Below, piece by piece: positions 3,530 to 20,605 of a stretch of DNA of 22,230 nt. The position numbers were made by a program, and so were the translations under genes. The notes below the pieces were generated by a model. The model was not told the DNA's origin. It worked only from the letters and a program-made list of their open reading frames with translations, and did no database searches. The stretch is from a virus. The stretch's first letter is position 1. Every line of letters starts with the position of its first letter. The stretch covers positions 1 through 22,230 of IMG/VR virus record IMGVR_UViG_3300042545_000646, one strand, 5' to 3'.

Positions 3530-3973
3530 ATGTTATCAGACGATCTAAAAACTTTATTGGCTACACAATATGCATTTGCGGTAAAAGCACAGTACTCTCA
3601 TTGGAATGTGGAAGGACCTGATTTTGCTCAACTGCACAAGTTCTTTGGTAAACTGTACGAGGAAGTCAACGACAACAGCATTGATCAAACAGCAGAATTC
3701 ATACGTGTGTTGGACGAATACACTCCAGGTAGTTTTGAACGTTTTCAAGAACTGAGTCTGATTCCGGGACAGACTAAGGTACCCCGTGCTCGACTCATGA
3801 TCGAAGAACTCTTAGCCGACACCCAGGTCTTGATCGACCTGCTAAATCAGTGTTTTGTGTCAGCTGAACAAGAAAACCAGCAGGGCATTGCTGACTTTGT
3901 GAGTCAACGCCTGGCGGCCATGGGCAAACATGCTTGGATGTTGCGTAGCTTCCTGAAGGACAACAGAGCATGA
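3530..3973 (+). CDS. dps: Dps-like ferritin (DNA-binding protein from starved cells)
   Basis: A 147-residue protein, close to the size of the Dps core. It has the family signature SHWNVEGPDF at 23-32 followed by QLHKFFGKLYEEV at 34-46. Conserved ferroxidase ligands are H24, H36, D52 and E56. The H36-D52 distance looks one residue longer than the usual 15. The C-terminal helix KHAWMLRSFL is also typical. Dps proteins form 12-subunit shells that oxidise and store iron with peroxide, protecting DNA. There is no long basic tail, so direct DNA binding is not evident. It has no capsid-targeting-like leader, unlike its neighbours. It lies one base after the previous stop and overlaps the next gene by ATGA. 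Protection of phage or host DNA during infection is inferred. Confidence 0.85.
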   Translation: MLSDDLKTLLATQYAFAVKAQYSHWNVEGPDFAQLHKFFGKLYEEVNDNSIDQTAEFIRVLDEYTPGSFERFQELSLIPGQTKVPRARLMIEELLADTQVLIDLLNQCFVSAEQENQQGIADFVSQRLAAMGKHAWMLRSFLKDNRA

Positions 3974-7643: not shown

Positions 7644-10310
7644 TTGAGTTATGTAGATGCCCTGTTCGATCGAGACAAAGATCGAATCCACGTAGTTGAA
7701 CGCATCAACGGCGTTCGCAAATATCAAGAGTATCCAGCAAATTATATTTTCTATTACGACGACCCCCGCGGTAAGTTTCGTAGTATCTTCGACACACCGG
7801 TTGCACGTTTCAGCACAAGAAACAACAAGGAGTTTCGCAAAGAAATTCGCATGCACACCGGCAAACAACTCTTCGAAAGCGATATCAATCCTGTATTCCG
7901 TTGCCTAGCAGAAAACTTCCTAGGTGCTGATGCTCCTAAGTTACACACAGCATTCTTCGACATTGAAACAGACTTCGATCCTGTGCGTGGATTCTCCAGC
8001 ACAGAAGAAGCTTTCAACAAAATCACAGCCATTACAGTTTACTTGGATTGGTTGGATCAACTGGTTACACTAGCTATCCCACCCAAGTCAATGAGCATGG
8101 AGACTGCTAGAGAGATTGCAGCTGAATTTGACAACACATTCATGTTTGAAAAAGAAGCAGACTTGTTGGATTCGTTCCTGCATCTAATTGACGATGCTGA
8201 TGTGCTGTCGGGCTGGAACAGTGAAGGTTATGATATTCCTTATACTGTGAATCGTGTTACACAAGTATTGAGCAAGGATGATACCAGACGTTTTTGTCTA
8301 TGGGGACAGATGCCCAAGGCTAGAACCTTTGAACGCTTTGGTAAAGAAAGTCTAACATTCGACTTGGTAGGTCGTGTGCATATGGACTATATGCAACTGT
8401 ATCGCAAGTACACATATGAAGAGCGTCACAGTTACAGCTTGGATGCCATTGGCGAGTACGAAGACCTTGGTTCAAAGACCGCATTCGAAGGCACACTGGA
8501 TCAACTGTACAATCAAAACTTCCGCACGTTTATTGAGTACAACAGACAAGACGTGTTGCTGGTTAACAAGATTGATAAGAAACTAAAGTTCTTGGATCTT
8601 GCCAATACCATTGCACACGAAAACACAGTGCTGTTGCCAACCACAACAGGTGCGGTTGCAGTAACCGAGCAGGCCATCATTAACGAAGCTCATGCACGTG
8701 GCATGGTTGTTCCAAATCGTCGCAGCTACGGTGATGATGACAACACTCAAGCAGCTGGTGCTTATGTGGCATATCCTAAAAAGGGTCTATGGCAAGACAT
8801 TGGATCCATTGACATCAACAGCTTGTATCCATCAGCTATTCGTGCCTTGAACATGGGACCAGAAACCATTGTGGGGCAACTGCGTCCCACAGCTACAGAT
8901 GCCTTAATCAATGAACGCATGAGCAAGGGCATGAGCTTTGCAGCAGCCTGGGAAGGTTTGTTTGCAACCTTGGAATATACCGCTGTGATGGAACAGAATC
9001 GCGGCTTTGAACTCACTGTTGATTGGCAAGATGGCACCAGTACCACCATGTCAGCTGCGGAGTTTTGGCCCATTATATTCAACAGCAACAAGCCCTGGAT
9101 CATCAGTGCCAATGGCACTATCTTCACATACGACAAGGAAGGAATCATTCCGGGCTTGCTGGCACGTTGGTATGCTGAACGCAAAGAAATGCAGGCTACA
9201 CTTACTCGAGTAAAGGAAGAAGGCAATGCTGAACTGGAAGAATACTGGGACAAACGTCAGCTTGTTAAAAAGATTAACCTCAACAGCTTGTATGGTGCTA
9301 TTCTTAATCCTGGTTGTAGATTCTTTGACAAACGCATTGGACAATCAACAACACTGACTGGTCGGAGCATTGCCAAACACATGGATGCTTATGTGAATGA
9401 GTGTATCACTGGCCGATATGATCACGTAGGCGACGCCATCATTTACGGCGACACAGACTCGTGCTACTTTACAGCATATCCTGTACTGAAGAAAGAAATA
9501 GATGCAGGCCGCATGGTCTGGAACAAGGATACAGCCATTGCGTTGTATGACAGCATTGCTGATCAAGTCAACATCAGCTTTCCTGGCTTCATGGAACAGG
9601 CTTTTCATTGCCCCCGTGAGATGGGTGCTATCATCAAGGGTGGTCGAGAAATTGTTGCCAGCAAGGGCTTGTTTATTACCAAGAAGCGTTATGCTGTGTT
9701 GTTCTATGACAAGGATGGCAAACGCTATGATGTGGGTGGCAAACCTGGCAAGGTCAAGGCCATGGGCCTGGATCTCAAACGTAGCGATACTCCTAAGGTA
9801 ATTCAGGACTTCTTAAGCGATATTCTCAACGATGTACTCAACGGCGTTGGGCGAGATCCTATTATAGAAAAGATTCGTGATTTCAAATATCTTTTCAAAG
9901 AACGTCCAGGTTGGGAAAAAGGTTCGCCTAAGCGTGTCAACAACTTGACCATGTACGGCAATAAAGAAATCAAAGAAGGAAAAACCAACATGCCTGGTCA
10001 CGTGCGAGCAGCTATTAATTGGAATAATCTTCGACGCATGAACAGTGACAACTACAGTCTAGCAGTCACAGACGGTATGAAAGTTATTGTGTGTAAATTA
10101 AGGCAAAATCCCTTGGGGTGGACGTCAATTGCTTATCCCACAGATGAACAACATTTGCCCAAATGGTTTACAGAACTACCATTCAATGATGCCGAAATGG
10201 AAGCCACTGTTATTGACGGAAAGGTAGACAACTTATTAAGTGTATTGGAATGGGACTTGGCATCCGCAACTAACACAGATAATACTTTTGAAAATTTATT
10301 TGAGTTCTAA
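7644..10310 (+). CDS. 43: T4-type family B DNA polymerase (gp43-like)
   Basis: An 888-residue replicative polymerase, close to T4 gp43 (898). Exonuclease motifs are DIETDF (106-111), GWNSEGYDIPY (190-200) and YNRQD (299-303). Polymerase motifs are A DINSLYPS (390-397), B KINLNSLYGA (543-552) and C YGDTDS (601-606), followed by KKRYAV. All catalytic carboxylates are present, so both synthesis and proofreading should work. The C-terminus ENLFEF resembles the clamp-binding tail of T4 polymerase, fitting the sliding clamp gene downstream. The start is TTG at 7644 with GGGAG eight bases upstream; an in-frame stop lies at 7578 and no ATG intervenes, so a non-ATG start is forced. The stop directly abuts the next ATG. 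It is GC-richer than the following gene (55% in 9001-9060, counted by hand). Confidence 0.96.
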   Translation: MSYVDALFDRDKDRIHVVERINGVRKYQEYPANYIFYYDDPRGKFRSIFDTPVARFSTRNNKEFRKEIRMHTGKQLFESDINPVFRCLAENFLGADAPKLHTAFFDIETDFDPVRGFSSTEEAFNKITAITVYLDWLDQLVTLAIPPKSMSMETAREIAAEFDNTFMFEKEADLLDSFLHLIDDADVLSGWNSEGYDIPYTVNRVTQVLSKDDTRRFCLWGQMPKARTFERFGKESLTFDLVGRVHMDYMQLYRKYTYEERHSYSLDAIGEYEDLGSKTAFEGTLDQLYNQNFRTFIEYNRQDVLLVNKIDKKLKFLDLANTIAHENTVLLPTTTGAVAVTEQAIINEAHARGMVVPNRRSYGDDDNTQAAGAYVAYPKKGLWQDIGSIDINSLYPSAIRALNMGPETIVGQLRPTATDALINERMSKGMSFAAAWEGLFATLEYTAVMEQNRGFELTVDWQDGTSTTMSAAEFWPIIFNSNKPWIISANGTIFTYDKEGIIPGLLARWYAERKEMQATLTRVKEEGNAELEEYWDKRQLVKKINLNSLYGAILNPGCRFFDKRIGQSTTLTGRSIAKHMDAYVNECITGRYDHVGDAIIYGDTDSCYFTAYPVLKKEIDAGRMVWNKDTAIALYDSIADQVNISFPGFMEQAFHCPREMGAIIKGGREIVASKGLFITKKRYAVLFYDKDGKRYDVGGKPGKVKAMGLDLKRSDTPKVIQDFLSDILNDVLNGVGRDPIIEKIRDFKYLFKERPGWEKGSPKRVNNLTMYGNKEIKEGKTNMPGHVRAAINWNNLRRMNSDNYSLAVTDGMKVIVCKLRQNPLGWTSIAYPTDEQHLPKWFTELPFNDAEMEATVIDGKVDNLLSVLEWDLASATNTDNTFENLFEF

Positions 10311-11675
10311 ATGAAACTAAGTGAAATTATTGCCTATAAAAATTTATTAGAAGGAATTACTCCTTTAAATTCTACGCCATTGGTACACGAAATATTAAAT
10401 CCAGTATTGAAAGTAATAGAAAACAATGAAATACAATTTCAATACCTTACGCAACAACTACAAGAAAATTATCATTGCGTACATAGAACGTTAAATGATT
10501 TTGAAAATACAATAGAAAACATTAAAATTTCAATACTCAAATTAATTGAACAACAGGAAAAATCTTATTATAGTAACTGTGCTGATTTATATACCACAAG
10601 TACAAATTTTGAAACGACCGAATACATTTTAAATCGTAAATTACCAGTATTTAAAGAAGTCGTCGGCCAATTGGTTACACGTATTCAATCACTTAACAAC
10701 TGGCAACACGCAGGAATGATTATACGACCTGGCCACGAAGAGTGGATCAAATATTTGGTTGGCTGCGATCCGTTGTATTTGGTAGATTATTCTGATGAAT
10801 TAATCGAGCCAGCAGTATTGAGATTCAATGATCAATATCAAAGACGATTGCGTACCTATGTAATTCAGGAATCGTCACACGCTCCTATGTTTAGTTGTAT
10901 TCCAGATGCTCAATTAGGCGTTTGTTTAGTTTGGAATTTTTTTAATTATAAACCTATTGATATCATAGAACAATATCTTAAAGAACTATACAATAAGTTA
11001 AAACCAGGCGGAACACTAGCCTTAACCTTTAATAATTGCGATCGTGCTGCCGGAACAGAATTGTTTGAACGTCATTTTATGAGTTATACCCCAGAAAGGG
11101 AAGTTTTAGCTAGGGCTGAAGCAATTGGTTATATTGTTACCTATAATTTCAGAACTGATTCCAGTAATACTTGGTTAGAATTGCAACGTCCAGGACAGTT
11201 AAGTTCCATTAAAGGTGGACAGTCATTAGCAACTGTAATAGACCCAGCTGATGAAATACGTAAACAACAAGACGAAATACGTAAACAACAAGACGAAATA
11301 CGTAAACAACAAGAGCAGCAACTACGCAACGAAGAATTACGAAAAGATGCAAAAAATCTAAATATAACTGATTGGGAAACATTACCAATTGATGAATTAA
11401 AATTATTAATTAGACAGAAAGAACAAGTTATTTTTGAAACAGAACAAAAAATTCGCCGCGAAGCCCAACATCTAAAAATATCCGAATGGGAAACATTACC
11501 TATGGATGAATTAAAGCAAAAAATGCAAGCGGCATATGATCTTAATGAGATCAATGAGCTCAGAAAGAAGGCCATAAGGTTGCAACTTGATCGGACTGAG
11601 CGTATACTAAGCAGTAAGTATTATCCTTTAGAAAAACTAAGAGAACTTATTAACCAATGGAGAAAAACACAATGA
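10311..11675 (+). CDS. Methyltransferase-like protein with C-terminal helical repeats
   Basis: A 454-residue protein. Residues about 1-130 are helical. Residues 130-295 look like a class I SAM-dependent methyltransferase fold: LVDYSDELIEPA (157-168, acidic strand end), DAQLGVCLVWNFFNY (199-213), and LKPGGTLALTFNN (230-242), typical of the strand 5 region. The usual N-terminal GxGxG loop is not obvious, so SAM binding may be altered. EIRKQQD is repeated three times at 315-334. Three related helix-turn-helix-like units follow (about 343-370, 381-408, 416-450; e.g. ITDWETLPIDELK), similar in style to SAP/HeH DNA-binding motifs. It is very AT-rich (27% GC in 10321-10380, counted by hand) compared with the polymerase, suggesting separate acquisition. 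Its stop overlaps the clamp ATG. The substrate is unknown. Confidence 0.55.
   Translation: MKLSEIIAYKNLLEGITPLNSTPLVHEILNPVLKVIENNEIQFQYLTQQLQENYHCVHRTLNDFENTIENIKISILKLIEQQEKSYYSNCADLYTTSTNFETTEYILNRKLPVFKEVVGQLVTRIQSLNNWQHAGMIIRPGHEEWIKYLVGCDPLYLVDYSDELIEPAVLRFNDQYQRRLRTYVIQESSHAPMFSCIPDAQLGVCLVWNFFNYKPIDIIEQYLKELYNKLKPGGTLALTFNNCDRAAGTELFERHFMSYTPEREVLARAEAIGYIVTYNFRTDSSNTWLELQRPGQLSSIKGGQSLATVIDPADEIRKQQDEIRKQQDEIRKQQEQQLRNEELRKDAKNLNITDWETLPIDELKLLIRQKEQVIFETEQKIRREAQHLKISEWETLPMDELKQKMQAAYDLNEINELRKKAIRLQLDRTERILSSKYYPLEKLRELINQWRKTQ
11253..11315 (+). repeat. Three tandem 21-base repeats
   Basis: GAAATACGTAAACAACAAGA plus C is repeated exactly at 11253-11273 and 11274-11294, with a third copy at 11295-11315 differing only in the last base. 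It encodes EIRKQQD/E in a helical linker. Near-identity at third positions points to recent slippage expansion. Confidence 0.95.
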
Positions 11676-12403: not shown

Positions 12404-13927
12404 ATGACCGAACAACACAATCTCACAGCTAACCAAAAAGACTACGCTGTATTCCTTCCGGCCATCAGCAGTTTCTATGCCAATTATGTGGGCCGTCAAC
12501 GTACTGAAAACTACATTGACGCCACACGTATGCCTGCTGGCATTCCCGACATGGAACAACTCAACTGGTTAAATCCACAGAAAGGTCTGTTCCCGTACAG
12601 GTACAGTTTGTATAGTGCAGGACACGCAGACTTGGATTTGACCAAGTTTGTGCCCAAAGAAGACATGGTTCGCAACAGAGACCCCAACACCATCATGTTG
12701 GCTGACTCAGGTGGGTTCCAGATTGCCAAGGGTGTATGGCCCGGACGTTGGGCTGATCCTACAGATAAGGCCGCAGAAAAGAAACGCGAAGCTGTGCTTA
12801 AATGGCAGATGGGCATTGCCACACACGGCATGACCATGGATATTCCCACTTGGACTTATCGAGATCCCAAAGCCGCTGCCTTATGTGGTATCCACAGTTA
12901 TGACGATGCGGTCAATGCAACCAAGTTCAACAACGAATACTGGATGGCCAATCGCTACGGTGAAACCAAGATCCTAAACGTGTTGCAGGGTGGTAACCAT
13001 ACGGAAGCAGATCTTTGGTATGACACAATGAAAGACTACTGCGATCCCAGCAAGTACAAAAAGCATTTCAACGGCTGGGGTATGGGAGGTCAGAACATGT
13101 GCGACGTCGAACTGGTTCTCAAACGCTTGGTACACTTGATTCATGATCGTTTGCTGGAGCCTGGCATACACGACTGGATGCACTTCTTGGGTACAAGTAA
13201 ATTGGAATGGGCTGTGTTGTTGACAGTTATTCAACGTAGTGTTAGACAGTATCACAACCCTGGCTTTACCATCAGCTTCGACTGTGCCAGTCCGTTCTTG
13301 GCCACAGCTAACGGTCAGTTGTATCACAACATTACAACTGAAAATCGTAAAAAGTGGAGCTACAACATGAGCCCCACAGCCGATGATAAGAAGTATGCGG
13401 TAGACAACCGTTTGTTTGGCGACGCAGTAAGACAAGACGGCATTCATCCCATGTTTGAAGACAGTCCTTTAAGCAGCCGTTTGAAGATTTCGGATATCTG
13501 TTATTACAAGCCTGGAGACCTAAACAAGATTGGCAAAGAAGGTCGGACCAGTTGGGACAGTTTCAGTTATGCTCTGCTTATGGGTCACAATGTTTGGACA
13601 CACATTGAAGCTGTACAACGTGCCAATCGTATGTTTGATTCGGGTGTATGTCCGGACATGATGGTGCATCCGATCAATCCCGATTATGACGTGGCCAAGG
13701 TTATTGATCGTGTTTTCGCTGCTCGAGATCGCTCAAAGAGCTTGCAAATTATTGCAGACCATGCTAAAGTATGGGAACGGGTAGTAGGAACACGTGGGTT
13801 TACTGGCAAGCGAGCAGTTAACTCACACAGTCAATTCAACAACCTATTTGACATGGAAGAAGAGGAAATCCCAGTGGATGATCTCGATGAAGGTCAATTA
13901 GACAAACTAGAAAATAGTATAGAGTGA
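12404..13927 (+). CDS. dpdA: DpdA-type DNA-guanine transglycosylase (TGT superfamily)
   Basis: A 507-residue protein with the tRNA-guanine transglycosylase active site in order: DSGGFQ (101-106), D146 in MDIP, LQGG (194-197), GWGMGG (224-229, base-binding glycines), and SFDCASP (291-297), where D293 matches the nucleophile. The bacterial TGT zinc motif CxCxxC is not visible, and the protein is longer than TGT (about 375-385). That layout, in a phage replication region, fits DpdA, which swaps guanine in DNA for a 7-deazaguanine such as preQ0, blocking restriction. The C-terminal tail is acidic. Translation probably follows the clamp directly (TAA then ATG). Its TGA overlaps the GTG of the next gene. 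A tRNA or other substrate cannot be excluded; the subfamily cannot be set here. Confidence 0.82.
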   Translation: MTEQHNLTANQKDYAVFLPAISSFYANYVGRQRTENYIDATRMPAGIPDMEQLNWLNPQKGLFPYRYSLYSAGHADLDLTKFVPKEDMVRNRDPNTIMLADSGGFQIAKGVWPGRWADPTDKAAEKKREAVLKWQMGIATHGMTMDIPTWTYRDPKAAALCGIHSYDDAVNATKFNNEYWMANRYGETKILNVLQGGNHTEADLWYDTMKDYCDPSKYKKHFNGWGMGGQNMCDVELVLKRLVHLIHDRLLEPGIHDWMHFLGTSKLEWAVLLTVIQRSVRQYHNPGFTISFDCASPFLATANGQLYHNITTENRKKWSYNMSPTADDKKYAVDNRLFGDAVRQDGIHPMFEDSPLSSRLKISDICYYKPGDLNKIGKEGRTSWDSFSYALLMGHNVWTHIEAVQRANRMFDSGVCPDMMVHPINPDYDVAKVIDRVFAARDRSKSLQIIADHAKVWERVVGTRGFTGKRAVNSHSQFNNLFDMEEEEIPVDDLDEGQLDKLENSIE

Positions 13928-14751
13928 TTTGTATTGTTTACCCCAGTGGTGCACACGGACATTTTTTGAAGCTCATGCTGAATTCAATGGTCGGGGTCGA
14001 CTATAGTGTAGCAAATTCTAGAGTATACGATTTTGTTAAATTCAAAGGAAATGTTGAGTTTGTTACCAAAGACCATTATGATCCCACGTCCGATGATCAT
14101 ATTATTAATATACAGGTAAGCCCCAGTTCGTACCTAAAGTATGCAGCCATGTGTTTGACTAGAACATCTGGTTTGGATATAGTATTAGAAAGTTTATCAA
14201 TCGACACTTTTAAAAAACTAGAACAGCACTGTATATTCAGTCATTTTTTGCCGGCATTGTCTTCAATCAGTGGAAAACTATCTGGCGATGTAGACATTAT
14301 GTATTTGAGAGAATGGACAAGACTTGTATTGTTTGCTGATAAAGGTATTACTATTTCTCAATGGATAGCACCTGATGTTGCAATCGATGCAGATTATGTA
14401 GTAGATTTTGAAAGTTTTTATAATGGTACTCTAGAGGATACTTGCAGTCAGATTTTAACACATTATGGATTTGCTGTATCTTCTGATAAGATTAATTCTT
14501 TGTTAGAACACTTTGATCAGAATAACAGATATCGTTTGATTGATTCAGATATACCAGCTATTTTAGAACATATTAAGATGGGACAATCTTATCCAATCAA
14601 AAATACTAATTTTTTATCTCAAGCATATATTGATAATTGGTTGGTTGAAAATTACTATGTTGATCCTTTGCTACGCAATGAATACTTTACTGATACCAAA
14701 GAAATTATTGAAACTTATGGTCTTTTGACTAAATCAAATGTTGCTTATTAA
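13924..14751 (+). CDS. Unknown protein coupled to dpdA, possibly sulfotransferase-like
   Basis: A 275-residue protein starting with GTG that overlaps the dpdA stop (GTGA). The N-terminus MICIVYPSGAHGHFLKLMLN looks like a beta-strand, glycine/histidine loop and helix, as in the PAPS-binding start of some sulfotransferase-like phage proteins, but no second PAPS motif is clear. A later VVDFESFYNG followed by a helix (about 159-190) also recalls the end of sulfotransferase domains. No membrane segment or signal peptide. It is AT-rich (30% GC in 14401-14460, counted by hand), unlike dpdA. The overlap implies co-expression with dpdA, so a role in modifying the inserted base is a hypothesis. Family assignment is weak. 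Confidence 0.4.
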   Translation: MICIVYPSGAHGHFLKLMLNSMVGVDYSVANSRVYDFVKFKGNVEFVTKDHYDPTSDDHIINIQVSPSSYLKYAAMCLTRTSGLDIVLESLSIDTFKKLEQHCIFSHFLPALSSISGKLSGDVDIMYLREWTRLVLFADKGITISQWIAPDVAIDADYVVDFESFYNGTLEDTCSQILTHYGFAVSSDKINSLLEHFDQNNRYRLIDSDIPAILEHIKMGQSYPIKNTNFLSQAYIDNWLVENYYVDPLLRNEYFTDTKEIIETYGLLTKSNVAY

Positions 14752-14769
14752 CACAAATTCTGCTACAAT
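14741..14769 (+). promoter_or_regulatory. Sigma70-like promoter candidate
   Basis: TTGCTT (14741-14746) and TACAAT (14764-14769) with 17-base spacing, beginning in the last codons of the previous gene and 30 bases before the ATG at 14800. It lies at one of the few real gaps in the gene chain. The -35 match is partial. Confidence 0.4.
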
Positions 14770-14799
14770 TAGATATCAATCACTATTAAATTAATTAAA

Positions 14800-15321
14800 A
14801 TGAATAGAAAAGGCCACGAAGATGTAAAATTCTTCATAGGTGCCGAAGTTGAACAGACTCCTGCATTTGGTGCCAACACATTGTTTGTGATAGGTGTTCA
14901 GCCCAATGGTGATATCATGCATCATGTACAAACGCACCCTATAAGGATTGAGCATATCTATTTTGGTGCCAACATGAGTTTTCCTAATCCTGCTACCAAT
15001 GATTTTCACACATGGAATTCATGGGAAGATATGATTTGCCCTTTTCTAGAGGCAGGCATGTGGTGTACGCTAGACTTGGATGTTAAGTCAGTAGAGGGAT
15101 TGGCGGAATCACGCATGATCGAATATCATCACTTTATTCCCATGATCTCTGTCAAGTTACCTTATATCAAGCAGCTGGGATATAACGCTACAATCAAGCT
15201 GGATGATCGAGATTTTGCAGCAACCAATCCCGGTGTATGGTGTCACAGCTTACACACTCTACAAAATCGTGAGGTGTTTACACCTTGGTCTCGATACACA
15301 AAGGACACGGTAATCAAATGA
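14800..15321 (+). CDS. Hypothetical phage protein, mixed alpha/beta
   Basis: A 173-residue soluble protein with no family I can name with confidence. It opens MNRKGHEDVKFFIGAEVEQT. Hydrophobic strands alternate with helices (TLFVIGVQP, RIEHIYFGANMSF, WEDMICPFLEAGMWCTLDLD, FIPMISVKLPYI, YNATIKLDD), suggesting a repeated beta-alpha or TIM-barrel-like fragment. Conserved-looking residues include FGANMSFP, W-x-x-W-E-D and LDLD. No Cys triad for radical SAM is present. No good Shine-Dalgarno sequence precedes the ATG, but a promoter candidate does. The stop overlaps the next ATG (ATGA). Its place after dpdA makes a nucleotide-related role possible but unproven. Confidence 0.6.
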   Translation: MNRKGHEDVKFFIGAEVEQTPAFGANTLFVIGVQPNGDIMHHVQTHPIRIEHIYFGANMSFPNPATNDFHTWNSWEDMICPFLEAGMWCTLDLDVKSVEGLAESRMIEYHHFIPMISVKLPYIKQLGYNATIKLDDRDFAATNPGVWCHSLHTLQNREVFTPWSRYTKDTVIK

Positions 15322-15686
15322 AATTTTTCGATCGATGGTTTTATCGTAAAGCACGTTGGTGCTGGCATCGTGCAGGAGTTGAGCACCCTGAACTCAAAGC
15401 CGAACAGGATTACCTGGACAAGAAGATCAAAGGTCTAAACAGTATAAACAGCGACATGCTGGAAAGAGACTGTGTTGTTTCTACCAGTGACGATATTGAC
15501 CTGGCACGTCCTATCCGTTTCAAAGTGGCAGCAGCTGAAGGTGGCATGATTGTAGAAGTACAAACATATGACAGCAAGAAAGATCGCAGCATTACCAAGC
15601 ATCACATTATCCCAGACGAAACTGAGGATAAAGCTGCTGCTATTGCTCGAATTGTATCCTGGGAATTTTTACGGAGACCTGACTAA
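15318..15686 (+). CDS. Small hypothetical phage protein
   Basis: A 122-residue protein read from the ATG at 15318, which overlaps the preceding stop (ATGA); a longer frame from 15285 would overlap the upstream gene by 37 bases and is not preferred. The N-terminus MKFFDRWFYRKARWCWHRAG is aromatic and basic and could lie on a membrane surface or bind nucleic acid. A charged helical middle follows (LKAEQDYLDKKIKGLNSI), then strands (IRFKVAAAEGGMIVEVQTY) and an acidic helix. No known motif. The TAA shares a base with the next ATG. Confidence 0.6.
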   Translation: MKFFDRWFYRKARWCWHRAGVEHPELKAEQDYLDKKIKGLNSINSDMLERDCVVSTSDDIDLARPIRFKVAAAEGGMIVEVQTYDSKKDRSITKHHIIPDETEDKAAAIARIVSWEFLRRPD

Positions 15687-16150
15687 TGATTAATACAGAA
15701 CGTGAACAAATAGAACGTATTAAAGAAGCAGCACAGCGACAAATCTGGGTAACCTTCCAAAAAGAAGGCATTCATAAATATCCTGCGGCCTTGACAGATC
15801 CCATGTTGGCCACAGGAGATGAATATGATGTATCGTTTCTTGGCTATCCTCATCGCCACATCTTTCATTTCAGGGTGTGGATCGATGTATGGCACAACGA
15901 CAGGGATCTCGAGTTTATCCAATTCAAACGCTGGTTGGAGAACCTTTACCGTACAGCCGATAACAATACTGCGAATACCGTTTTAAGTTTAGATTACAAA
16001 TCATGCGAAATGATTGCCGACGATCTGTATCTACAGATTGCCGCACGATATTCCGGACGCAGTGTCTGGATAGAAGTAGCCGAAGATGGTGAGAACGGCT
16101 GCTTGATAAAATACAATACTCACCGCCCTAACCAAATCGTTTCAATCTAA
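15686..16150 (+). CDS. T-fold protein, possibly QueD/6-PTPS-like
   Basis: A 154-residue protein whose histidines and acids follow the order of 6-pyruvoyltetrahydropterin synthase/QueD enzymes. VTFQKEGIH (22-30) could supply the first zinc His, then PHRHIFHFRVWIDV (55-68) with H56-x-H58 and a beta-strand, DRDLEFIQFK (72-81) resembling the M-x-x-D-F helix, SCEMIADDLY (106-115) resembling PT-x-E-x-x-A, and WIEVAEDGENG (128-138) supplying a terminal Glu. QueD makes carboxy-tetrahydropterin, a step toward preQ0, which would serve the DpdA-like enzyme about 1.8 kb upstream. No catalytic Cys at the usual place is evident, so it could be inactive or act on another substrate. The start shares a base with the previous stop. 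Confidence 0.48.
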   Translation: MINTEREQIERIKEAAQRQIWVTFQKEGIHKYPAALTDPMLATGDEYDVSFLGYPHRHIFHFRVWIDVWHNDRDLEFIQFKRWLENLYRTADNNTANTVLSLDYKSCEMIADDLYLQIAARYSGRSVWIEVAEDGENGCLIKYNTHRPNQIVSI

Positions 16151-16159
16151 GGAAGTCGA

Positions 16160-16372
16160 ATGGCCAAGCCATCAATTAAAACCAATCCCAAAGTAGCACA
16201 AATTTTTGAAGACCTAGAACAATATCTAGACTTTTGTCGCAGATACGGTTATAAGTTTAACGAAGCTGATCTGTACAATTGGAAAAGCTATGCCTATCAA
16301 CAATTCAACAAGAGTCTGCAGGGCAAACATGTCAAAGACATGTGGTTCCAAGACAGCCCACGGAGCCGTTGA
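16160..16372 (+). CDS. Small helical hypothetical phage protein
   Basis: A 70-residue protein with ATG preceded by AAGGAAG that overlaps the previous stop, a strong ribosome site. The sequence is helical and charged (KVAQIFEDLEQYLDFCRRYG, then YKFNEADLYNWKSYAYQQF) and ends with a basic tail. No enzymatic motif, membrane segment or signal. Its TGA shares one base with the ATG of the glycosyltransferase gene, so the two are probably co-translated. It could be a small partner or an unrelated regulator; the sequence does not say. Confidence 0.65.
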   Translation: MAKPSIKTNPKVAQIFEDLEQYLDFCRRYGYKFNEADLYNWKSYAYQQFNKSLQGKHVKDMWFQDSPRSR

Positions 16373-17598
16373 TGCGTAAACTCTACTACATGGGTTTGGA
16401 GTCTTACGAGGCTCGTTATACCCTACAACTGACAGAATGGAATCAACGTGTATTCGAACGTCGAGGACTTGATGTAGTTTATGTACCGGGTGTTAATCTT
16501 GACAATACTAAGAAGATTAGTGTAGGCCAAGTCCTAGACGCACATGGCCGCAGTTACTTTGGTATGAGTCAGATGATGAATCTGGTCAAACTGATGCAGC
16601 AAGGTGAAGTTACCAATGAAGATGTCATCTACTTTGAGGACATGTTTCAACCTGGCATTGAAAGTTTGCCTTACATTATGGACCAAGTTCCTGAACAGCA
16701 CCGCCCTCGCATATACGTTAGATGTCTTGCACAGAGTATTGATCCTGATGACTTTGTTCATGTGTGCGGTATGCAAAAGTGGATGGGACTATATGAAAAA
16801 ATGGTCAATGAGTTTGTAACAGGTGTACTTGCCACCAACGAAGAAATGGTAGCACACATGAAGATTGCAGGTTGGACAGCTCCAATCTATAATATTTCAG
16901 GCTTGGCCTTTGGCAAAGACGAAGTGCTGGAACGCATCGGTGGTGCAGCTAACATTCGACCATTTGCAGCACGTCGACGCAGAGTAGGCTTTGCTGCTCG
17001 TTTTGATCAGGAAAAGCAGCCCGGGTTCTACATGGACTTGGCCGAACGTTTCCAGGAAAATAATTCAGATGTAGTATTTGCTGTGTTCTCCGGCGGTCCA
17101 TTGCGTAGTAACAATCCAGAATATGTCAAGCGAGCTCGTGCCATGGAAGCAGCGGGCAAGTTGGAAATTCACGAGAATCTAAGCAAGAATCAATACTACG
17201 AGTTGGTCAACGACAGTCGTGTGCTGTTTAACTGTGCATTGCAGGACTGGGTTTCCAATACTGTAAGCGAAGCTGATACCCTGGGTTGTAATGTGTTGTA
17301 TCCTGCGTATAGATCATTTCCGGAAACCTTTGCCAATGATCACGAACGCATGTATGTGCCTTGGTCAATGGAGGATGTTACTGCTAAGTTGACTACGTTG
17401 TTAAATTCTCCGCATCGTAACATTGGCTTGATTAGCGACTGGAACAACGGCACAATTGATCGCGTTGTTGACATATTAGTAGGACTTGATCCTCTTAGCA
17501 AAGATGCCCGCGATCGAGCCTTTAAATGGATACGTTCAGATACAAAGTATCGCGACCATGTTGCCAAGGCCAAGTACCCGCTTATTAAGAAATCGTAA
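16372..17598 (+). CDS. GT-B glycosyltransferase (family 4-like)
   Basis: A 408-residue protein read from ATG 16372, which overlaps the previous TGA by one base; the longer frame from 16279 would overlap a real gene and is rejected. The C-terminal half has the GT4/GT-B nucleotide-sugar domain: RRVGFAARFDQEKQPGFY, DVVFAVFSGG, LEIHENLSKNQYYELV, and SRVLFNCALQDWVSNTVSEADTLGCN, where the EAD...G region fits the donor-binding E-x7-E-like site with the second acid changed. The N-terminal half is the acceptor domain. No membrane segment. It heads a run of sugar-type genes. Acceptors could be modified DNA bases, as in T4, or a surface glycan; the sequence does not decide. Codon use is closer to the replication genes than to the AT-rich genes after it. 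Confidence 0.72.
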   Translation: MRKLYYMGLESYEARYTLQLTEWNQRVFERRGLDVVYVPGVNLDNTKKISVGQVLDAHGRSYFGMSQMMNLVKLMQQGEVTNEDVIYFEDMFQPGIESLPYIMDQVPEQHRPRIYVRCLAQSIDPDDFVHVCGMQKWMGLYEKMVNEFVTGVLATNEEMVAHMKIAGWTAPIYNISGLAFGKDEVLERIGGAANIRPFAARRRRVGFAARFDQEKQPGFYMDLAERFQENNSDVVFAVFSGGPLRSNNPEYVKRARAMEAAGKLEIHENLSKNQYYELVNDSRVLFNCALQDWVSNTVSEADTLGCNVLYPAYRSFPETFANDHERMYVPWSMEDVTAKLTTLLNSPHRNIGLISDWNNGTIDRVVDILVGLDPLSKDARDRAFKWIRSDTKYRDHVAKAKYPLIKKS

Positions 17599-17673: not shown

Positions 17674-18702
17674 ATGTATACATCCGCAACTGTAGTTCAT
17701 TGGTTAAAACACCCCAGGGACAAAGTTATACTTCCTGCATCAGTAGACATTGATCTTACAAATATTTGTAATCAAGATTGTTTTTACTGTAACAGCGCAG
17801 AATTTAGGGCCGAATCACCGGGAGGTCCTGGATATCAAACTTATATCAAATTGCTGGATCAATTAGCGACGTGGCGAGCTCATAGTCCAGATAGTGTGGG
17901 CAGTTTGCAGACTGTTACTTTTCCTGGCGGTGGCGAACCAACACTACTTAAAGGTTATGAATATGTATTAGAAGCAGCAGTTGATCATGATTTCCTTACC
18001 AGTATAACTACCAATGGATTTAAATTAGATCAACTAATTGATAATGTATCGCATGATAAATTAAGACGACTAGGATGGATAGGCATTGATGTTGATGCTG
18101 GTAGTGCAAGTCTGTACGAAGAAATTCGCAGGACTATTACTGGTAAAACAATATTTTATCAAATGCAGGATAATGCCCGGACATTGCGGAAGATAGGAGT
18201 CAATGTAGACTTTAAGGTTTTATTATGCGAACTTAATACCAGTGAATCGGCACTGCGAGATATCTTCAAAATGGCCAGAGATGTTGATATACGTTTGTTA
18301 TACTTTAGATCAATGATCTTAAATTATAAAACATTTCCGGTTAGTGACGAATTGTTGGCATTGATCAATCAATTAAGTCAAGAGTATGGCCAACCTATCA
18401 AGGTAAACTTGGGTAAAAGTGATACTAGAAATTACAGCAGATGCCACCAGATGTTTCAATTTCCTGTATTTTGTGCAGACGGAAACATTTACACTTGTTG
18501 CGAGAATAAGGGTAATCCGCAATTCAGTATTGGAAGTTGGCTGGAAGGTGATTTTAGAGACTTGTGGCTTTCTGACCGGCATTGGAATGTGTACAATAGC
18601 ATTAATACTCATCTATGCCCTCCGTGTCGTCCCAATGGCGACAATATAGAAATACAAAATATTATGAACAATCCAATTTTAATAGAGAAGCTTTATCTAT
18701 GA
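17674..18702 (+). CDS. Radical SAM protein with SPASM-like C-terminus
   Basis: A 342-residue protein with the radical SAM [4Fe-4S] motif C32-x3-C36-x2-C39 after DIDLTNI, GGGEP at 85-89 for SAM binding, and ITTNGF at 111-116. The C-terminal part has C257, C267, C275/C276, C315 and C318 around ADGNIYTCC, GSWLEG and CPPC, typical of a SPASM/twitch auxiliary iron-sulfur region. Such enzymes use a 5'-deoxyadenosyl radical on peptides, sugars or small molecules. No precursor peptide is visible nearby, while sugar-type enzymes are, which favours a sugar or small-molecule substrate. It starts at an ATG without a clear ribosome site, 75 bases after the glycosyltransferase, and ends overlapping the next gene (ATGA). 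AT-rich. Confidence 0.85.
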   Translation: MYTSATVVHWLKHPRDKVILPASVDIDLTNICNQDCFYCNSAEFRAESPGGPGYQTYIKLLDQLATWRAHSPDSVGSLQTVTFPGGGEPTLLKGYEYVLEAAVDHDFLTSITTNGFKLDQLIDNVSHDKLRRLGWIGIDVDAGSASLYEEIRRTITGKTIFYQMQDNARTLRKIGVNVDFKVLLCELNTSESALRDIFKMARDVDIRLLYFRSMILNYKTFPVSDELLALINQLSQEYGQPIKVNLGKSDTRNYSRCHQMFQFPVFCADGNIYTCCENKGNPQFSIGSWLEGDFRDLWLSDRHWNVYNSINTHLCPPCRPNGDNIEIQNIMNNPILIEKLYL

Positions 18703-19679
18703 TATTTCCTGCAATTGAACTGATTGACCGTTATGCAATTGCATTAGTTAAATTTGAAAAGACTAGTGCCAACTCCGACGAACTAAAATTTTATGTTGAA
18801 CAATTACAACACATGCCACAAAATGTGGTTGAATTATATACACAACAGCTAGTTAGTATACACAAAGAAATTTGGAGCTTAGAGGCAGAACTTAAAACAT
18901 TTAACGAGCAACATTTGCCGTTAGAAGAAATAGGTCGTCGAGCTATCCTAATACGCAATTGGAATGCCAAACGCATCGAAATTAAAAACAAATTTGCCGA
19001 GGCGGTTAACTGCATAGTTAAAGAGACCAAAGTTTCTCACTTGAGTCAGAATAACCCAACTGTTGCTTTCCTGCCCAAATTCAACATGACTGGAAATAGT
19101 ATAATGTACAGTAAACTTTTCAATTTTGAAAAAGCATTAGCTGAGTACACCGGTGCCCCTTATGTAGTTGCAACCGACGGATGTACTCATGCTATGGAAT
19201 TATGTTTACAGTACGATCAAGTTAAAGAATGTTCACTTTCAGCATATACCTATCTTAGCATACCGATGCTAGTACATCGACTAAATATTAGCTATACATT
19301 AACTGATGAGCAATGGGTTGGCGAATATCAATTGCATGGTACCAGGATCTGGGATAGCGCACGTAGATTAGAGCGAGGTATGTACAGATCAGGTCAAATG
19401 CAATGTTTGAGCTTTGGTAACACAAAACCATTGCAATTAGGCAAAGGAGGTGCTATACTATTAGATGACGCCAATGCTTATAAAGAACTAAGTATGATGC
19501 GAGGCGATGGTAGAGATTTTAACATTTCTCCGTGGCCACAGCAGAAAATATTCAAAGCTGGATATCATTTTTGTCCAACGTTAGAATTATGCGAGCTAGG
19601 CACTAATTTATTACCTTCTATTAACAAAGCCCCCGAAGCTGTTTCATACCCCGACTGTAGGTTACTTACAATTTTATGA
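18699..19679 (+). CDS. Fusion: DUF6165-like helical domain plus short DegT/DnrJ-type PLP aminotransferase
   Basis: A 326-residue protein from ATG 18699 (ATGA overlap); the longer frame from 18615 overlaps the radical SAM gene and is rejected. Residues about 1-112 form a helical domain (IELIDRYAIALVKFE, HKEIWSLEAEL, NWNAKRIEIKNKF) resembling DUF6165. Residues about 125-305 match DegT/DnrJ/EryC1/StrS sugar aminotransferases: YVVATDGCTHAMELCL near the cofactor phosphate site, IWDSARR with D219 for the pyridine nitrogen, and SFGNTKPLQLGKGGAILLDD with K243 as PLP lysine. The aminotransferase part is about 200 residues, against about 370 usually, lacking much of the C-terminal domain, so it may need a partner or act differently. 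AT-rich (25% GC in 18781-18840, counted by hand). Overlaps the SDR gene by ATGA. Confidence 0.7.
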   Translation: MIFPAIELIDRYAIALVKFEKTSANSDELKFYVEQLQHMPQNVVELYTQQLVSIHKEIWSLEAELKTFNEQHLPLEEIGRRAILIRNWNAKRIEIKNKFAEAVNCIVKETKVSHLSQNNPTVAFLPKFNMTGNSIMYSKLFNFEKALAEYTGAPYVVATDGCTHAMELCLQYDQVKECSLSAYTYLSIPMLVHRLNISYTLTDEQWVGEYQLHGTRIWDSARRLERGMYRSGQMQCLSFGNTKPLQLGKGGAILLDDANAYKELSMMRGDGRDFNISPWPQQKIFKAGYHFCPTLELCELGTNLLPSINKAPEAVSYPDCRLLTIL

Positions 19680-20605
19680 AAATATTCATTACTGGTTCTT
19701 CTGGATTCATTGGTTCGCACCTTAGCCCATTGCTAATGCCTACAAATGAAATACATAACATGGTTAGTGATTTAACTGATCATGATAAAGTACAACAAGA
19801 GATCTTAGAGTTTAATCCTGACATTGTCATCCATTTGGCTGCTAGGACTGAAGTCGAGAAGAGTTTTTACGAGCAAGTAAGTTTTAGTGATGTTAACTAT
19901 GTTGGCAGTGTTAACTTAATCGAAGCTGCTAAAAAATGCACAAATCTTAAAAACTTTATATTTGCTAGTACAATGGAAGTGTACGGATGGCAACCAATCA
20001 GCGACGAAGTCGAAGGAATTGGTAGACCAGAAACTCCGATTGCATTTGATGAACATACCGCACCAAATCCAAATGCACCATATGCAGTTGCAAAATATGC
20101 TGTGGAAAAATATTTAGAGTATATGCATCGTAGCCAAGGGTTTCCCTTTACTGTTATTAGACAAACTAATGCATATGGTCGCAAGGATAATAATTTTTTT
20201 GTTACTGAACAAATTATTACCCAGATGCTTGAAAATCCCATTGAGATCAACTTAGGCTATGGCGAACCTTATAGAAACTTTATTTTTATTAGTGACTTGC
20301 TTAACGCATGGGTCGAAGTTATCAATAACTATGAAAAGTGCCAAGGATTAATTTTTACTCTAGGCCCCGACCAGCCGATCAAGATCAAAGATTATGTAGA
20401 TATCATTGCCAAAAAAGTTGGCTGGACTGGTACAGTTAACTGGAATACTAAGCCTAAACGCCACGGCGAAATTTATTGGTTAAACAGTAACAATAATCTT
20501 ATTACAAAAACACTAGGATGGCAACCTGTAGTTAACCTTAGCGATGGGCTAGATTATACGATTAAGATTTGGAAAGACAAGTATGATAACGCAAGGAAAC
20601 ATTGA
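19676..20605 (+). CDS. Extended SDR, NAD-dependent nucleotide-sugar epimerase/dehydratase type
   Basis: A 309-residue protein with the Rossmann motif GSSGFIGSHL (7-16), HLAARTEV (53-60), catalytic FASTMEVYG (96-104) and YAVAK (136-140), giving Ser/Thr-Tyr-Lys, then RQTNAYGRKDN and a GYGEPYRNFIFISDL substrate-site region. This is the family of UDP-glucose 4-epimerase and dTDP-glucose 4,6-dehydratase; substrate choice cannot be read from motifs. It overlaps the DegT-like gene (ATGA), and SDR plus DegT aminotransferase is the classic pair for making amino-sugars. Its 3' end overlaps the next gene by 23 bases. All catalytic residues are intact. Confidence 0.88.
   Translation: MKIFITGSSGFIGSHLSPLLMPTNEIHNMVSDLTDHDKVQQEILEFNPDIVIHLAARTEVEKSFYEQVSFSDVNYVGSVNLIEAAKKCTNLKNFIFASTMEVYGWQPISDEVEGIGRPETPIAFDEHTAPNPNAPYAVAKYAVEKYLEYMHRSQGFPFTVIRQTNAYGRKDNNFFVTEQIITQMLENPIEINLGYGEPYRNFIFISDLLNAWVEVINNYEKCQGLIFTLGPDQPIKIKDYVDIIAKKVGWTGTVNWNTKPKRHGEIYWLNSNNNLITKTLGWQPVVNLSDGLDYTIKIWKDKYDNARKH

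Follow-up and report, generated by a model that had tools for sequence, protein, structure and literature searches.

The window, as we call the whole stretch of DNA analysed here, is a virus record of 22,230 nt (IMG/VR record IMGVR_UViG_3300042545_000646) that is identical in sequence to part of a longer contig of 55 kb. It contains a gene for a predicted DpdA-type base exchange enzyme, designated dpdA, and a group of downstream genes, which together would belong to a cassette for DNA hypermodification in large tailed phages. A previous sequence-only reading had situated dpdA in a phage replication region, in agreement with the gene for a B-family DNA polymerase found at positions 7644–10310, and its limits for dpdA (12404–13927, 507 aa), for the overlapping gene orf275 (13924–14751, with a GTG start) and for orf154 (15686–16150, 154 aa) were exact. 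The region is organized as follows, with loci counted among the relatives of the window:

12404..13927, plus strand: predicted DpdA-type DNA-guanine transglycosylase (base exchange enzyme) of 507 aa, recognized by its predicted fold, a profile link and conserved Asp residues
13924..14751, plus strand: orf275, an accessory open reading frame (ORF) of 275 aa with a GTG start, a recent insertion between dpdA and orf173
14800..15321, plus strand: orf173, conserved partner of dpdA, found in all 44 window-type loci that have both flanks
15318..15686, plus strand: orf122, a small and variable ORF (24/84 loci)
15686..16150, plus strand: orf154 (phrog_17812), a QueD-like T-fold paralogue of 154 aa, recognized from its model, Foldseek, hhalign and conserved residues
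16160..16372, plus strand: conserved ORF of 70 aa between orf154 and the glycosyltransferase gene (63/84 loci; 9/13 cassettes)
16309..17598 (alternative start at 16279), plus strand: GT4-type glycosyltransferase related to QTMAN, predicted from adjacency and profiles to decorate the base
19676..20605, plus strand: NAD-dependent epimerase/GDP-mannose-dehydratase-like protein (PF01370, E=1.9e-40; PF16363, E=5e-38), possibly supplying a nucleotide sugar

Searches of Pfam, NCBIfam and PADLOC did not recover any match for the product of dpdA, and the one found in PHROGs was at chance level; its assignment as a TGT therefore needed independent evidence. PF01702, searched in the window record, likewise gave no match. 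The motifs DSGGFQ (containing D101), LQGG, GWGMGG and SFDCASP (containing D293), from which the sequence-only reading had recognized a TGT, are all found in the 507-aa product, and D101, G229 and D293 are invariant among 54 diverse relatives, with Asp101 and Asp293 being the counterparts of the TGT catalytic aspartates. Structure models were built on IMG/VR sequences only, leaving out the isolate phages; that of DpdA (AlphaFold2, 54 sequences) had a pLDDT of 89.8 and a pTM of 0.90, and its 18 best PDB matches by Foldseek were all TGT, QTRT1 or DpdA proteins. Among them was 7ui4, a bacterial DpdA acting as a DNA preQ0 insertase, which shares fold and base exchange motifs with the window enzyme. 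A search of PDB sequences with the DpdA profile yielded nothing meaningful. Using hhalign, the window DpdA profile matched DpdA2 (ACP17 gp123, VH7D gp012 and the proteins from X1 and BUCT-ZZ01) with a probability of 91 (E=9e-7), and a set of 80 bacterial TGTs with a probability of 36 (E=4e-4), in an alignment that pairs SFDCASP with FDCVMP of the Escherichia coli enzyme, and LQGG with IQGS; DpdA2 itself reached 90 against bacterial TGTs in the same test. The similarity between the window DpdA and DpdA2 profiles was weak by hmmsearch, run on a small set (E=1e-3 to 4e-6), and the DpdA2 profile did not match PA5oct or Phosso, nor did the window DpdA profile match VH7D.

The closest known enzyme is DpdA2 of the Vibrio phage nt-1/VH7D type, which is also encoded by large phages, has the same TGT fold without a Pfam TGT match, and is linked to folE and que genes (PMC6884629). 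However, the two are only ca. 22 % identical over 192 columns, the window protein is longer (507 versus about 420–460 aa), and its family sits with a QueD paralogue and a GT4 glycosyltransferase, mostly without QueC or QueF. No link at the sequence level was found to DpdA of phage 9g (hhalign probability 0.8), whose precursor genes also differ. The predicted fold, the profile link to DpdA2 and the linkage to folE, queD and queE bear out the identification made in the sequence-only reading, and we conclude that 12404–13927 very probably codes for a divergent DpdA-type DNA transglycosylase. The fold and the conserved catalytic residues point to an exchange of guanine for a deazaguanine, so that some guanines in the phage DNA are probably replaced by a 7-deazaguanine. 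A deazaguanine synthesis and incorporation system was already noted in phage PA5oct (PMC7824862), and DpdA of this type is consequently not new as such; it may belong to an already named subfamily.

Relatives of the window DpdA are encoded in 526 IMG/VR stretches, and a search of 50,697 phage records identified 13 more, with 27–36 % identity, from 11 PA5oct/Paride-type Pseudomonas phages, Vibrio phage 2.275.O and Sinorhizobium phage Phosso. We examined the whole records of 26 relatives (23 IMG/VR contigs and 3 isolates) for precursor genes, as the sequence-only reading had proposed for folE, queE and queC. FolE was found in 26/26, a PF01242 QueD in 24/26 and a QueE relative in 21/26; the records without a detected member of these three were short contigs and Phosso, whose QueE was recovered with an iterated profile. 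In the 55-kb contig that includes the window sequence, folE occupies positions 53435–53968, equivalent to ca. position 24262 of the window and thus ca. 2 kb past its end. True QueC appeared in one of the 26 records only, that of Vibrio phage 2.275.O, which was also the only one with QueF. Weak QueC matches in six contigs spanned just the PP-loop part, and the two of them adjoining queE were discarded as QueC, being NAD synthetases. Likewise, true QueC occurred among the isolates in 2.275.O and VH7D only, both with QueF and both lacking orf154 and the glycosyltransferase. We also compiled 55 viral loci, non-redundant at 90 % identity and flanked by 5 kb or more on both sides; 51 contain the glycosyltransferase, 47 a DpdA of either kind, at least 41 folE and at least 22 queE (lower bounds, with flanks of 8 kb), and none of the 55 contains queC or queF. 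Since IMG/VR contigs are often fragments, absences from single contigs mean little, and the absence of QueC rests on whole isolate genomes and on the largest contigs. The combination of orf154 and the glycosyltransferase and that of QueC and QueF were mutually exclusive in the records examined. FolE, QueD and QueE, which the relatives encode and the window itself does not, would make 7-carboxy-7-deazaguanine (CDG) and, for lack of QueC and QueF, would not lead on to preQ0 and preQ1; it is likely, then, that the inserted base derives from CDG without passing through preQ0.

The family of orf154, phrog_17812, is annotated as being of 'unknown function'. The AlphaFold2 model of its product (pLDDT 90) shows a beta-beta-alpha-alpha-beta-beta T-fold, whose best Foldseek matches were the E. 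coli QueD structures 4ntk and 3qn9 (TM up to 0.72 by target length). The PF01242 (6-pyruvoyl tetrahydropterin synthase, PTPS) profile did not match the window orf154 and reached E=0.15 for one relative; comparison by hhalign with the phages' own QueD did give a match, modest when taken alone (E=2.6e-5 over 43 columns), and a search of PDB sequences with the orf154 profile gave nothing meaningful. Residues H30, H56, H58, E76, F77, E108 and E133 are invariant in 60 relatives, conserving the layout H...HxH...EF...E...E, and orf154 thus shares with QueD/PTPS, besides the T-fold, the three zinc-binding His, the EF pair and two Glu positions. Nevertheless, the catalytic CxxxHG motif was found in 0/129 members, versus 41/41 of the true QueD proteins encoded separately in the same genomes; the position of the catalytic Cys is a Leu in 127/129, and most members show an SCE motif. 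The QueD-like fold proposed in the sequence-only reading is therefore well founded, whereas we rejected orf154 as the QueD of the pathway: with the catalytic Cys gone and a separate true QueD present, it would not supply the base simply as QueD.

In all the isolate lineages examined, orf154 lies near genes of the pathway: near folE in ACP17, RHph_I1_18, X1, Ahp1, phiST, BUCT-ZZ01, Bakedbeans, Phosso, MA9V-3 and D479, and adjoins queE in PA5oct. None of the isolates with orf154 has a full-length QueC, with one partial match in D479 and a weak one in X1. A pattern scan of IMG/VR found no relatives of the phiST-type orf154. From this distribution it is reasonably likely that orf154 takes part in the deazaguanine route, on the branch without QueC and most simply on CDG; the protein would process CDG or a base derived from it, decarboxylation being the likeliest known reaction. 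PA5oct (NC_071039.1) contains near folE two further genes of the PTPS family (169215–169715 and 171534–171944), besides that for the orf154-type protein. The orf154 domain is preceded by N-terminal extensions in MA9V-3 (L112:7431-8309), where the extension resembles an HNH endonuclease by eye, and in Bakedbeans (L110:7212-8363).

The gene at 16309–17598 codes for a GT4-like glycosyltransferase (PF00534, E=2e-5) and, in 49 of the 55 non-redundant viral loci, is no more than 1.5 kb away from orf154. A tblastn search with three members against the 50,697 phage records identified it only in the PA5oct-type phages, ACP17, Phosso, X1 and BUCT-ZZ01, plus one remote group of four PhiXhv/Ep032 phages with 24 % identity. 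Whole-record searches recovered it in precisely those five isolate lineages that have both DpdA and orf154 (PA5oct, Phosso, ACP17, Xanthomonas phage X1 and Synechococcus phage BUCT-ZZ01), and in 0/8 other isolate lineages. Gene order, with gt for the glycosyltransferase gene, is gt-dpdA2-orf154-queE in X1, dpdA2-gt-orf154-queE in ACP17, dpdA-gt-orf154 in PA5oct, dpdA2-orf154-gt in BUCT-ZZ01 and orf154-gt-folE in Phosso; since it differs among lineages, the linkage of these genes has been kept, or remade, despite rearrangement. The remote relative in PhiXhv-12 (L281:7747-10981) lies in an amino-sugar cluster, by a GlmS-like aminotransferase and a GlcNAc deacetylase and near a Leu/Phe-tRNA-protein transferase, suggestive of another kind of hypermodification or sugar cluster.

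The nearest bacterial relatives of the glycosyltransferase contain the QTMAN_N domain (PF12038). Of ten bacterial genomes searched with its profile, the four that encode a PF12038 protein gave one match each, always to this protein, and the other six gave none. Comparison by hhalign with PF12038 proteins gave E=5.7e-15, versus 2e-3 with WaaG and nothing with WaaB or WaaC. In animal tRNA, QTMAN adds mannose to queuosine, a 7-deazaguanine nucleoside (PMC12518689). The phage protein shares with QTMAN the C-terminal GT4 half, including a PDRLSYPE-type stretch, but differs in its N-terminal domain, not recognized by PF12038 in any of the phage members, in the Asp that window-type members have for the first Glu of EX7E, and in its predicted substrate, DNA. 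Additionally, a member of the epimerase family follows the glycosyltransferase gene directly or within two genes in 12/12 cassettes from relatives. Between both genes, the window contains genes for a radical SAM protein (PF04055, 17674–18702) and for a DegT/DnrJ/EryC1-type aminotransferase segment (18615–19679), the latter protein being shorter in relatives; the sugar genes in this interval differ among relatives.

The sequence-only reading had coupled dpdA to orf275, as a possible sulfotransferase gene. The overlap of the start codon of orf275 with the dpdA stop, as GTGA, is real; a role as partner is not sustained, because relatives lack the gene except for the identical contig, with a single further member, of 46 % identity, at a different position in another contig (L086). 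The G+C content of orf275 is 33 %, versus 42–47 % in the neighbouring genes. Moreover, the window and a contig (L002) with a 98 % identical DpdA align up to position 13912 and resume at 14800, with 8 bases at this junction in L002 versus ca. 887 in the window. The product of orf275 had no match in Pfam, NCBIfam or PADLOC, and one chance-level match to a PHROG of unknown function; a motif, PSGxHGHFL, is kept in its single relative. We rejected its identity as a sulfotransferase, since neither member matched such a profile at E<1 in Pfam or NCBIfam and the gene is not conserved; a sulfated base is, in consequence, without comparative support. As orf275 is a recent insertion occupying the dpdA junction, the conserved partner of dpdA is orf173, the start of which overlaps the dpdA stop codon as ATGA in L002, L004, L005, L006 and L008, and which also adjoins the DpdA2 gene in phage ACP17. 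A PDB search with the orf173 profile retrieved only designed proteins, with weak E values. Neither orf173 (14800–15321) nor the glycosyltransferase (16309–17598) had been named in the sequence-only reading.

From these results we propose that DpdA, with orf173 as a likely partner, would swap guanine in DNA for a deazaguanine by the TGT mechanism, and that the QTMAN-like GT4 enzyme would then add a sugar to it, the nucleotide sugar being supplied with the help of the nearby epimerase. The likely benefit would be protection from host restriction and from other DNA-targeting defences. The pathway and the base exchange are well supported; we infer DNA as the substrate, a CDG-derived base and the reaction of orf154. 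That the glycosyltransferase acts on the deazaguanine base is plausible but tentative, and with the same reserve, a little short of an even chance, we hold the complete explanation of a CDG-derived base inserted by DpdA and then glycosylated. The 'otherwise decorated' 7-deazaguanine that the sequence-only reading had contemplated is in this way supported, through a glycosyltransferase and not through sulfation. Several points weigh against the glycosylated base. Its weakest link is the acceptor: once decarboxylated, CDG offers no evident O or N atom at C7, and the sugar could be attached to the carboxylate, to carbon, or to a group introduced by orf154 or orf173. The activity of QTMAN was described for the animal enzyme, the bacterial PF12038 proteins being putative counterparts. 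Large phages also carry clusters of glycosyltransferase and epimerase genes thought to modify host surface sugars (PMC7824862). Furthermore, orf154 occurs in six isolates with FolE, without the glycosyltransferase and with no DpdA detected by our two profiles, showing that it does not need the glycosyltransferase; and hosts could supply preQ0. With only five independent isolate lineages, the correlation among isolates is by itself suggestive, and adjacency in viral contigs is the stronger evidence.

The cassette could instead yield dCDG or dDG without any sugar, with orf154 as the predicted CDG decarboxylase, the glycosyltransferase and epimerase being mere neighbours that act on the host surface or on another target. 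This is a serious, if somewhat doubtful, alternative, which agrees with a pathway of FolE, QueD and QueE that ends at CDG in the absence of QueC, with phiST, MA9V-3 and others carrying FolE, QueE and orf154 without the glycosyltransferase, and with the surface-sugar clusters known in jumbo phages (PMC7824862). It does not readily explain, however, why five unrelated isolate lineages and 49/55 viral loci have the glycosyltransferase by orf154 or dpdA, in varying order, nor why its nearest bacterial family is QTMAN and not the lipopolysaccharide enzymes tested. It is unlikely that the phages use QueC (and QueF) of the host, with ordinary dPreQ0 or dPreQ1 in their DNA and other jobs for orf154 and the glycosyltransferase: QueC exists in most bacteria, and phages with only DpdA have been proposed to use host precursors (PMC6884629), but these phages bring FolE, QueD and QueE and yet omit QueC in nearly all records, and the relatives carrying QueC and QueF lack both orf154 and the glycosyltransferase.

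A queuosine-like glycosylated base in tRNA, produced during infection, is very unlikely. Although TGT and QTMAN are tRNA enzymes, and the fold cannot distinguish an RNA from a DNA substrate, the phage homologues diverge from tRNA TGTs and have as nearest relative DpdA2, which has been linked to the modification of DNA in phage nt-1 (PMC6884629), and the genes adjoin that of a DNA polymerase. Finally, a deazaguanine sulfated or otherwise decorated by orf275 is hardly credible, since its start at the dpdA stop codon and the motif retained in one relative are set against a private insertion of 0.88 kb without a sulfotransferase match.

Other genes of the window and its relatives include that for a ferritin-like/Dps-like protein at 3530–3973 of the window (PF00210, E=2.7e-19) and, after the DNA polymerase gene, one for a fast-diverging protein of 454 aa (10311–11675; 28–54 % identity), with EIRKQQD repeats and weak similarity to methyltransferases. 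Genes for a phosphoribosyltransferase, a HIT protein, an HhH-GPD glycosylase and a PRA-PH/MazG-like protein recur between folE and queE in L095, L098, L092 and other cassettes, and the phosphoribosyltransferase gene is also present in BUCT-ZZ01; this enzyme could salvage the guanine released by DpdA.

Both 7-deazaguanines in phage DNA and glycosylated pyrimidines, as in T4, are known; the literature searched yielded no description of a glycosylated deazaguanine in DNA. Cui et al. (2023) reportedly described dDG, dCDG, DpdA3 and DpdL, a predicted CDG decarboxylase. It is possible that orf154 corresponds to DpdL, as both are proposed to act on CDG without preQ0. If so, or if the window DpdA belongs to a named subfamily, the novelty of those two parts would be lower; to our knowledge, this would leave that of the link to a glycosyltransferase intact.

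The analysis relates phrog_17812, a widespread family with the QueD fold, to deazaguanine synthesis on its branch without QueC, and identifies orf173 as the conserved partner of DpdA. It is also possible, and we advance this slightly more tentatively than the glycosylation itself, that hundreds of large environmental phages, along with the PA5oct-type phages, Phosso, ACP17, X1 and BUCT-ZZ01, contain in their DNA a glycosylated 7-deazaguanine, the counterpart of mannosyl-queuosine. The cassette thereby gives a prediction that can be tested in existing isolates, among them PA5oct and Paride, jumbo phages of P. aeruginosa.

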